Part shown: positions 1 through 49,243 of the stretch, piece after piece
How positions within the stretch are numbered: position 1 is the first letter of the stretch
Layout of the letters: the number at the start of each line of letters is the position of its first letter
Assembly (NCBI RefSeq): GCF_000001735.4
Contig: NC_003071.7
Location: forward strand, 7,681,151 to 7,745,150
DNA length: 64,000 bases
From: Arabidopsis thaliana
Lineage: Eukaryota; Streptophyta; Magnoliopsida; Brassicales; Brassicaceae
Reading direction: 5' to 3'
Notes under the pieces: generated by a model
The model's database searches: none
Seen by the model: the letters and a program-made list of their open reading frames with translations, nothing else
What the model was told of the DNA's origin: nothing
Translations under genes and position numbers: made by a program

Positions 1-700
1 ATTTAAGACTCGGTAATCAATTAACTATGTTCAGAATTTTTGGTTGTTTGGATTGACTTTTGGGTAAAAGAATTTAGAATTGCAAAGAATTGCAAACAAT
101 CGGTTTGTTCGGATTAGGTAAAAGCATTCCGAATTGAAAACCTAAGTTTGTCTTGGACCCCTAAAATTTAAGCTTAATTTATCAATTTCGGTACATTTGC
201 AAAGTTCAGTCCAATTCAAATATTCGGTTTAGACCAAAAGTTCGAATAATGAAAAAAAAACATCTGAAAGTTGTGGAATTTTTTTTTAAAGCAAATTGGT
301 AAACCATAAGAACTTCTTTAAAAGTCCACCACATCATTTATCCTTCAAAATCTCCCCAAATACGAAATCAAGCAAGTCTTCCAAAATTTAGAATCTCCAA
401 TACACCATGTTGGGAAACAAACCAACTTTTTACATCCGAAGATTATAGATATATTGTCTAATATATCAATCAAGTCCAACTCCAATTAGAAGAAAGTTTT
501 TTTGGAAAAAAGCCCTAAACAAATTTGTGCAAGTTTTACCACTTGGACCCAAAGCGGACAATATCATCCTAATCGAAAAAGTTGGAATGGGCTTGGAGAG
601 CCCAACAACCCTATTTTTTAGAAAACAATAAATTTATTTGCAAAACGACATGAAAATCATCGTACAAAACATTCAAGATATATGATGAATTATTTGATTA
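1..700. other. intergenic, no gene seen
   Basis: AT-rich sequence with stops in all frames and no conserved protein. It lies upstream of the SDC promoter repeats. I recognise no transposon termini here, although the repeated 'ggattaggta'-type words suggest old decayed repeat DNA. Confidence 0.5.
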
Positions 701-704
701 TTAC

Positions 705-938
705 CACGTCAGTAGTTATGAAGATAAGATTTTACAGTACACGTTGATATAAAGATGAGATTTCGCTGTACACGTCAGTTATTTAGATAAAATTTCACAG
801 TACACGTCAGTTATAAAGATAAGATTTCACAGTACACATCAGTTATAAAGATAAGATTTCACAGTACACGTCAGTTATAAAGATAAGATTTCATTGTACA
901 CGTTAGTTATAAAGATAAGATTTCACAATACACGTCAG
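705..938 (+). repeat. SDC promoter tandem repeats (7 units of about 32 bp)
   Basis: Seven head-to-tail units begin at 705, 740, 771, 803, 835, 867 and 899, and a partial eighth runs 931-938. Units 3 to 7 are exactly 32 bp and start CACGTCAGTTATAAAGAT or a one- to three-base variant. Unit 1 (35 bp) carries a 3-bp insertion and unit 2 (31 bp) is the most diverged. From published work on SDC, these direct repeats are the target of siRNA-guided DRM2 and CMT3 non-CG methylation that keeps the gene silent in vegetative tissue. The array ends about 36 bp before a TATA-like box, so it sits where silencing would block initiation. Confidence 0.93.
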
Positions 939-974: not shown

Positions 975-985
975 TATAAGTATAG
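975..985 (+). promoter_or_regulatory. TATA-like box of SDC
   Basis: CTATAAGTATAG at 974-985 lies just downstream of the tandem repeats and about 690 bp before the SDC start codon. It implies a long leader, which could be spliced (possible donor near 1478, acceptor near 1604). Placement is inferred. Confidence 0.45.
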
Positions 986-1667: not shown

Positions 1668-2933
1668 ATGGGTGATTGGTCAAAGCTACCAGAGGAGCTT
1701 CTTGGTTTAATTGCTCTCAGACTTTACTCCGTCATCGAACTCATCCGTTTCCGGAGCATATGCAAGTCATGGCGCTCCTCTGCTTCCGGCGTCAACAAGA
1801 ACCATTCCCTGAGCTCCCCTCTCATCTACTTCAAGCCGCTCCAAATCATTCTCGCTCGCGCACAAGCAAACGGACAAATTTTGAGCAAGTATCATGGCAC
1901 GGTCCTCTCACGTGCCACATTCTTTCGCGTCACACTCGCCTCCTCTCCGGACCAAGGGTGGTTGATCAAATCAGACACCGATCTCAAATACCGGAATTTC
2001 CATCTCCTAAACTGCCTCTCTCGCAAAGCACTAGGACGTTCTCGCAAGCTCATTTCTCTGTCGGAGTTCATAGTCTCCGAGATTCAAGAATCTTATGCGG
2101 TTGTAGGCCGCCGCACAAGAGAAACAGCTAGCGAATTCAAAAGAGTGTTTCTTGTCAGAGTCCAAGGAGGAGATCATCGTGTTCTAGTGATCGGCATCGA
2201 CGGGAAAATCAGGTTCTGGAAAGGAGGAATATGGAACGGAATCAAGAAACAAGTAGCTCAATTCTCTGACTTTGTACTTGACGAAGGTCTTACTTACGCT
2301 GTGGATACAAAAGGCATTATGTGGTGGATTAGTTCCGCTTACGACATCATCAGGTACGGAACTAAACTACATGAAAACATCACTAACGGTTCTTGCGGAG
2401 AAAAAAGGTTTGTAAGATGTCGTGGAGAACTTTACATTGTAGATCGTCTCATTGACGAGAATCTCCTAAAGAGAAAAGCTGATTCCTATGATGATAATGC
2501 CATTGTTCATTTCCGGAATGCTGATTATACCAATGCTGATCTCTGGGAAGATGGTAATGGCAATGATGATTTCTTCGCTGCTCAGGCTCATCGCTTTATC
2601 CATGTGCTACACGACAATCTTGGGAATGTAAGTTGTAAACCATTTGAACGTGACCCTCCCAAAACGATAGGTTTCAAGGTTTACAAGAATGATGAAGAAC
2701 TGTTAAAATGGGTAGAAGTCAAGTCCTTGGGAGATAAGGCGATTGTGATAGCTACCGATGCCTGTTTCTCGGTTTCGGCTCATGAGTTCTACGGATGCCT
2801 GCCAAATTCTATTTACTTCACCGACAAAAAGGAAGAAGAGGTTAAGGTGTTCAAGCTAGATGATGGTAGTATCACAACAATGTCGGAATCTGAGCAGAGT
2901 TGTTTCCAAATGTTTGTCCCTAGCTTTCTCTAA
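1668..2933 (+). CDS. SDC: SDC, F-box protein repressed by promoter methylation
   Basis: Single-exon gene of 421 aa. The N-terminus (residues about 4-40) is an F-box with the pattern LPEELLxLIxLRLxS...RxxCKSWRS, which would bind an ASK/SKP1 subunit of an SCF ubiquitin ligase. The rest resembles the DUF295/SKIP23-like F-box family, with the conserved C-terminal stretch around residues 330-400 (IxxDACFSV, PNSIYFTD, V-VFKLDDGS). The start is the first ATG of the frame. I identify it as SUPPRESSOR OF drm1 drm2 cmt3 (At2g17690) from the F-box sequence together with the seven promoter repeats. It is known that loss of non-CG methylation switches it on and causes curled leaves and dwarfing; its ubiquitination substrate is not evident from sequence. 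Confidence 0.93.
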   Translation: MGDWSKLPEELLGLIALRLYSVIELIRFRSICKSWRSSASGVNKNHSLSSPLIYFKPLQIILARAQANGQILSKYHGTVLSRATFFRVTLASSPDQGWLIKSDTDLKYRNFHLLNCLSRKALGRSRKLISLSEFIVSEIQESYAVVGRRTRETASEFKRVFLVRVQGGDHRVLVIGIDGKIRFWKGGIWNGIKKQVAQFSDFVLDEGLTYAVDTKGIMWWISSAYDIIRYGTKLHENITNGSCGEKRFVRCRGELYIVDRLIDENLLKRKADSYDDNAIVHFRNADYTNADLWEDGNGNDDFFAAQAHRFIHVLHDNLGNVSCKPFERDPPKTIGFKVYKNDEELLKWVEVKSLGDKAIVIATDACFSVSAHEFYGCLPNSIYFTDKKEEEVKVFKLDDGSITTMSESEQSCFQMFVPSFL

Positions 2934-42809: not shown

Positions 42810-44000
42810 TACTATTTCTTTTTGGGGGAGTTTCAAGTGTTTCTTATGAAGATGAGAAAAACAGAAAAAGTTTGTACATTTTAGCTAAGTTAAATTTGTG
42901 GTGGTAAGTAATGTAAAAGAAAAGTGTGTGTAGAAGAAAAGTGTCTAGAAAAAGAAAGCAACTAACTTTCTTCTTCTTCTCTGGTTTCCTATCAACTCTT
43001 TTGACTTTTGTACTTTTTTTCTTCTCTACTTAACCTCTATTATTGTAATGCCAAGTCAAGTCCTTATCTAGCTAGTACATGAGTTTCTGTTTTCACTGGT
43101 TAAGCCATTACTGCACTGTATTGTCAGATGATATAAGTCTTCATAATGATGCTAAGAAGATTTTTTCTTGGTTGACTTCTTTTTGTGTATGCTTTATTAG
43201 CAACCAGAAACAACAGAGAAACAGAATAAATACCTAAGAGCAAATTTGGTAGCATCTAATGTTTTAATAAAAGTTGGGCCATGAATATGCTCACATTATA
43301 AAGTTGGCTTTATTAGTAACCAGAAACAACAGAGAAACAAAATAAACACCTAAGAGCAAATTTGGTAACATCTAATGTATAAATAAAAGTTGGGCAATGA
43401 ATTTGCTGACTTCCTTCTTGTAGCAACTTTAAAGATGCTACAAATGCTTGCTTCATTCTGATCCAATAATATTTGTTCTTCTGATGCATCCACCTTCTTC
43501 CTCAAACATTTGGAACCAATCTAAAGGAATAATTAACAACAATATGATAGAGATGACATGTTATTCAGTGTAAATTTCTTAACTTTATTTAGCAGGCAGC
43601 ACATAAAAAATGGGAAAGAATCAGCTAATCTTGATCCTCTATTTGACGAAAATAAAATCTTCAAAATACCAAAAGCTATGAACAAAATATTCAATCTGCA
43701 AAACTAACGTGAAAAACTCTTTTTTTTTTTCTTTGGTCACAACATGAAACCTTATTTTTCTGCACTGAAAATTTCATATTATAACTTACAAATTCAACCA
43801 CAAATGTTTGTTTTTCTTCTTCAAAAGGTCTATTGTTAACAATGATTTGTCACCTATTTGCATCTAGTATAGAATAAGGAAGGTTTTAGAATCTCTATGG
43901 AGTATTTTTCCCAAACTAATTTACGTTAAATCTTAATGTCAACAATGAAATAAGAAGATTCATTTCATCATAATAACTGGGTTCTGTTTCGTGCTGGACA
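42810..44000. other. spacer between BZIP27 and MCA2
   Basis: Contains the BZIP27 3' UTR, a two-copy tandem repeat (43190-43411) and the MCA2 3' UTR. No gene seen. Confidence 0.5.
43190..43411 (+). repeat. two-copy tandem repeat, 116-bp period
   Basis: 'GCTTTATTAGCAACCAGAAA' at 43191 recurs with one change at 43307, and similarity continues for about 105 bp (caacagagaaaca.aataaa, agagcaaatttggta, aaataaaagttgggc.atgaat). Confidence 0.9.
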
Positions 44001-48945: not shown

Positions 48946-48949
48946 CTAA

Positions 48950-49243
48950 GAATATAATTTCTCTATATTTTTGCATCTTTTATCACAGTTGACACATACT
49001 GAGAAGGGATACTAAGAATTTAAGTTATTTTTCTTTGAATATAAAATAAATGTGGATTACTATTTATTATTCAAATATCATCCATACATTTTATATCTAA
49101 ATATAGAATTTAATTTCTCTACATTTTTGCATCTTTTATCACACTTGACACATACTGAGAAGGGATACTAAGAATTTAAGTTATTTTTCTCTAAATATAA
49201 AATAAATGTGGATTACTATTTATTATTCAAATATCATCCATAA
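48950..49243 (+). repeat. two-copy tandem repeat, 156-bp period
   Basis: 'ctctatatttttgcatc' at 48961 returns as 'ctctacatttttgcatc' at 49117, and similarity runs on through 'gacacatactgagaaggg', 'aataaatgtggattactat' and 'caaatatcatccata'. It sits within the Helitron near its 3' end. Confidence 0.9.

Follow-up and report, generated by a model that had tools for sequence, protein, structure and literature searches.

The tandem array near the start of the analysed stretch is, with a probability of about 95%, the known promoter array of SDC, a TATA-driven promoter that is silenced by siRNAs and DNA methylation. The SDC locus serves as a standard model for RNA-directed DNA methylation recruited by tandem repeats, and the role of the array, its copy number and its position before the TATA box have already been published. 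What we add is small and consists of a +3/-1 drift of the first units, a richness in CHG sites and an LTR-like copy 98 bp upstream. This analysis itself established that the array exists, where it lies, that it occurs once in the genome and that it is rich in CHG sites; methylation, siRNAs, silencing and start sites at SDC are taken from passages of published papers. The precise unit map can be used for repeat-deletion constructs, and the neighbouring LTR remnant is the sole new question that the analysis raises.

Positions refer to the window, the whole 64-kb stretch of Arabidopsis thaliana DNA that was analysed (C2:7681151-7745150); the array itself corresponds to C2:7681856-7682088 on chromosome 2.

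Table 1. Coordinates of the features at the SDC promoter (window positions)
Feature	Position	Strand	Remarks
Diverged solo-LTR-like copy, TRIM-type retrotransposon family	408..607	+	98 bp 5' of array
SDC promoter tandem array	706..938	+	7 unit bodies of ~32 bp, 8 ACGT-type landmarks
Unit 1	706..740	+	35 bp, +3 insertion located after the unit 1 landmark
Unit 2	741..771	+	31 bp, one base lost; the most diverged unit (22/32)
Units 3-7	772..931	+	period exactly 32 bp
Closing landmark ACGTCAG (partial eighth unit)	932..938	+	
TATAAG box	975..980	+	36 bp (939-974) 3' of array
Predicted transcription start	1006	+	C/A step, 31 nt 3' of the TATA box T
F-box / KIB1-4 beta-propeller ORF, SDC	1668..2933	+	421 aa

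The repeat array and its units

Seven unit bodies lie between eight landmarks, which bears out the seven 32-bp direct repeats described in an earlier, sequence-only reading of this DNA. The landmarks begin at 706, 741, 772, 804, 836, 868, 900 and 932 and read ACGT in seven of eight cases, the one at 836 being ACAT. Their spacings of 35, 31, 32, 32, 32, 32 and 32 bp agree with the claim that units 3-7 keep an exact 32-bp period and that the first two units measure 35 and 31 bp. The boundaries given there, 705..938, hold at the end, where the closing ACGTCAG accounts for the reported partial eighth unit, and are off by one base at the start, the first landmark being at 706.

Judged from the unit lengths and from where the landmarks and bodies fall, the drift consists of two small indels: unit 1 has gained 3 bp and unit 2 has lost 1 bp. 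Compared with the reference unit at 804 in the best ungapped register, units 1-7 match at 26, 22, 29, 32, 31, 30 and 30 of 32 positions, and the more uniform end of the array is the one proximal to the TATA box. TRF calls the array at 714-938, with a period of 32, 7.1 copies, 85% matches and a score of 338; its figure of 0% indels arises because the call begins inside unit 1. Under stricter TRF settings the array scores 308, against 33-56 for the best array per window in 40 dinucleotide-shuffled 64-kb windows, which confirms that it is real and non-random. No relic units were found 5' of the array, where the best match (16/32, starts 301-673) falls under the chance background of 20-21/32 elsewhere in the window. 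Units 3, 5, 6 and 7 differ from unit 4 at eight positions (three G>A, two C>T, three A>T), and each of the five that affect a G or C turns C:G into T:A; we make no claim of a deamination scar, since plain mutation bias would yield an identical pattern.

The sequence of the unit also invites another reading, in which the array is mainly a multimer of putative transcription-factor sites (GATAAG plus ACGTCA per unit) and silencing is secondary. We take these motifs to be an I-box (GATAAG) and a bZIP core (ACGT). A GATAAGATTT-like core occurs in all seven units and the exact GATAAGAT in five of them, ACGT stands at seven of the eight landmarks, and in drm2 cmt3 the signal from the promoter is strong (PMC4238952). 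As an account of what the array mainly is, we consider this reading doubtful, and it leaves the silencing role standing. It is compatible with the reading of the array as a silenced promoter, as such sites may drive strong SDC expression when unmethylated.

The SDC gene, its core promoter and its paralogs

Directly 3' of the array lies an F-box gene. Its reading frame (1668-2930) scores 24.4 bits against PF12937 (cut-off 24.3), 21.8 against PF00646 (20.5) and 106.1 against PF03478 (27.4), and the protein-coding match in the genome, an F-box plus KIB1-4 protein, spans C2:7682818-7684080. The gene is thus SDC, AT2G17690, on A. thaliana chromosome 2, as the sequence-only reading had named it; the placement at AT2G17690 uses what we assume to be AGI coordinates. 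Eleven further reading frames of the window were scanned as well: DUF1990, At4g08330-type, C1 and MCAfunc domains score above the curated cut-offs, matches to bZIP, Vps35 and response-regulator receiver domains lie below them, and four of the eleven frames have no domain match. These matches agree with the gene order on this stretch of chromosome 2, which we take to be bZIP27, MCA2, VPS35A and AHK1.

Bases 939-974 separate the array from the TATAAG at 975, the same 36 bp that had been reported before. Unit phase, drift and this distance had been put forward as new, and all three are correct. The unit-by-unit phase and the 36-bp figure were not found in the literature searched and may well stand in the original SDC paper, Henderson and Jacobsen 2008; the TATA box 3' of the SDC repeats, part of the same claim to novelty, is already in print (PMC7319988). 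From the spacing to the TATA box we predict that SDC transcription starts at 1006, with alternative pyrimidine/purine steps at 1002 and 1011. The leader (1006-1667) would then be long, with four upstream ATGs (1258, 1337, 1543 and 1575) as well as a donor-like AGGTAA at 1476, which together make a 5' UTR intron likely. It also holds a perfect 12-nt inverted repeat, whose arms (1015-1026 and 1065-1076) are 38 nt apart.

The array occurs once in the genome. In the A. thaliana assembly searched (119.66 Mb, seven contigs), the sole match of the 233-bp array is the array itself. The 32-bp unit with at most three mismatches gives five hits, all within the array (the divergence of units 1 and 2 puts them beyond the reach of this search), and a reversed control pattern of the unit has no hit in the genome. 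The SDC protein has 28 genome matches, including SDC itself; the best others show 48-50% identity over about 270 residues and lie on C1, and several shorter ones reach 61-73%. For 13 genes whose match starts at residue 1-4, we compared the upstream 1,500 bases (1,353 for one), correctly oriented beforehand. There were no array hits upstream of these 13 paralogs at E 0.1, and the best ungapped unit identity was 17-19/32, versus 32 for SDC. A strand-blind scan of 16 of the 19 paralog loci, which left out L013, L014 and L017 as overlapping the genes of L009, L008 or L010, found a best array match of 13 bp (E 0.43). Derivation of the unit from SDC paralog promoters, or its sharing with them, was rejected, because no copy of the unit was found upstream of the 13 paralogs.

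Tandem repeats as such are frequent in these promoters: seven of the 13 paralogs carry one within 1.5 kb upstream (TRF score of at least 40), all of other sequence and, one AT run excepted, of at most 2.6 copies. Short promoter repeats are thus not peculiar to SDC; the multi-copy array of the SDC unit is. The commonness of short arrays could suggest that the SDC array is a neutral minisatellite without a role, though none of the 13 paralogs has the SDC unit. We give this reading next to no weight, as genetic evidence links methylation of the array to SDC silencing (PMC2582956, PMC3431836, PMC4899616).

Individual repeats of this kind include one upstream of an F-box paralog encoded on the minus strand (L022 2467-2542, C2:11139656-11139731), with a 35-bp unit in 2.2 copies (score 134); it lies at -292 to -217 from the first matched codon and is unlike the SDC unit. 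The paralog L048 (C1:24092413-24094213) has upstream repeats of 102 bp in 2.0 copies (score 307) and of 64 bp in 1.9 copies. Within the window, TRF also reports a 156-bp unit at 48949-49242 (1.9 copies, 96% matches) and a 116-bp unit at 43191-43407 (1.9 copies, 92% matches).

Cytosine context and silencing of SDC

Counted on both strands, the array contains 22 CHG, 16 CG and 33 CHH cytosines, compared with 1, 8 and 67 in an equal length (233 bp) upstream and 9, 6 and 62 in an equal length downstream. None of 2557 overlapping 233-bp windows with a GC content of up to 33% reaches 22 CHG sites, though 6.7% of all 233-bp windows of any GC do; CG is unexceptional, as 91 of the 2557 low-GC windows reach 16. 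The array is therefore rich in CHG given its low GC, and this is because each unit carries two CAG. The richness may be incidental and is no proof of selection. It fits a locus controlled by CMT3 and DRM2 together, and it may underlie the double (DRM2 plus CMT3) lock on the gene.

On the published evidence, silencing very probably proceeds as follows. Vegetative tissue produces repeat-matching siRNAs via the Pol IV pathway; they guide Pol V and DRM2, leading to CHH methylation, and CMT3/KYP maintains CHG methylation of the array. CHH and CHG methylation jointly silence the TATA-driven promoter 36 bp downstream, and this same promoter fires upon loss of the silencing pathways, upon heat or in the endosperm state.

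Published work on SDC describes much of this scheme. Non-CG methylation of the promoter repeats silences SDC, the methylated sites there are mostly non-CG, and siRNAs hybridise to the repeats (PMC2582956), an account that agrees with the earlier statement that the repeats recruit RNA-directed methylation. CHH methylation at SDC is lost in suvh2/suvh9, and SDC is activated 10,000-fold in suvh9 suvh2 kyp (PMC2582956). An SDC -1200 promoter::LUC construct gives a suppressed signal in Col-0 and a strong one in drm2 cmt3, and this 1200-bp promoter reporter mirrors the behaviour of the gene (PMC4238952). CHH and siRNA profiles at SDC are named in a figure legend (PMC6753486), 24-nt siRNAs to SDC are reported in sperm cells and pollen (review PMC6627097), and SDC is described as an F-box gene whose promoter tandem repeats are silenced by RdDM and CMT3 (review PMC3431836; PMC8154917).

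Published accounts of the lock differ. According to PMC2582956, release of SDC requires failure of both the DRM2 and the CMT3 pathways, whereas PMC4899616 describes a strong SDC increase in nrpd1 or nrpe1 single mutants, with loss of Pol V in nrpe1 cutting CHH methylation there and leaving CG and CHG methylation unreduced. In met1 and ddm1, CAGE start sites of SDC are activated (PMC7319988), so CG methylation or DDM1 matters as well.

Across a subset of accessions, SDC typically has seven or eight repeats (PMC4238952). The seven units found here fit this range, and the comparison of repeat number across accessions that the sequence-only reading had proposed has thus already been published. In the same source, repeat number (7 or 8) does not account for accession differences in heat-release kinetics, and heat activates SDC even in mutants of siRNA biogenesis (PMC4238952); the array alone therefore does not account for heat control. 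The nucleosome density of the SDC promoter seems low already before heat (PMC4238952).

Among known repeat systems, the SDC (AT2G17690) promoter repeats are the identical locus, with the same F-box gene, promoter tandem repeats and downstream TATA box. The SINE-related direct repeats of FWA resemble SDC as promoter repeats silenced by methylation and in their CAGE start sites in met1/ddm1 (PMC7319988). In FWA, however, the TATA box and start lie inside the repeats, whereas the SDC TATA box lies downstream of them (PMC7319988), and FWA methylation is mostly CG, that of SDC more CHG/CHH (PMC2582956). The MEA-ISR tandem repeats share DRM2-dependent non-CG methylation with SDC, but depend mostly on SUVH2, while SDC depends on SUVH2 and SUVH9 redundantly (PMC2582956). 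The maize b1 hepta-repeat likewise comprises seven tandem repeats linked to silencing; unlike the SDC array, it is a distant enhancer ~100 kb upstream and is involved in paramutation (PMC7714444).

The LTR-like copy upstream of the array

The copy at 408-607 has the ends TG...CA and aligns over its whole length with 11 LTR pieces, with full-length homology to the LTRs of short two-LTR elements that possess a PBS and a PPT. Among the 23 other genome matches listed, 21 show 68-73% identity, and the remaining ones reach 78% over 95 bp and 82% over 57 bp. No target-site duplication flanks the copy, as 403-407 (CACCA) and 608-612 (ACCCT) are equal at two of five positions; we therefore class it solely as a diverged LTR-like copy, which is old or altered. 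The literature searched makes no mention of it at SDC, and the term solo LTR is absent from the text of PMC7319988.

A TE-like piece 98 bp 5' of the array could itself be the primary nucleation site of RdDM, with methylation spreading from there into the array and with the 23 other listed family matches giving siRNAs in trans. We judge this to be very improbable. For siRNAs to match in trans, the 68-73% identity seen in 21 of the 23 listed matches is low. In the title of their paper, Henderson and Jacobsen 2008 credit the repeats with recruiting methylation and initiating siRNA spreading. Published siRNA probing likewise names the repeats (PMC2582956). A contribution of the LTR remnant to setting up SDC silencing is unlikely. 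A composite switch, in which the TRIM-like LTR attracted silencing first and the CHG-rich array then made the dual DRM2/CMT3 lock, is a long shot as well; if it were true, the LTR would still matter for the establishment of methylation. Derivation of the repeat unit from the TRIM family was rejected: the best matches against 19 TRIM loci are 20 bp at 90% (E 0.038) and lie outside the LTRs.

TRIMs of Arabidopsis have been named Katydid (PMC4717578). One relative of the copy, L030, has two LTRs, with a tRNA-type primer site TGGTATCAGAGCC after the first and GGGGAGAT before the second, and is flanked on both sides by the 5-base repeat TACTA; this is how a TRIM element is built. The exact primer-site string is present in three of 12 inspected loci, and another relative, L037, lies between AATAC repeats and resembles a solo LTR.
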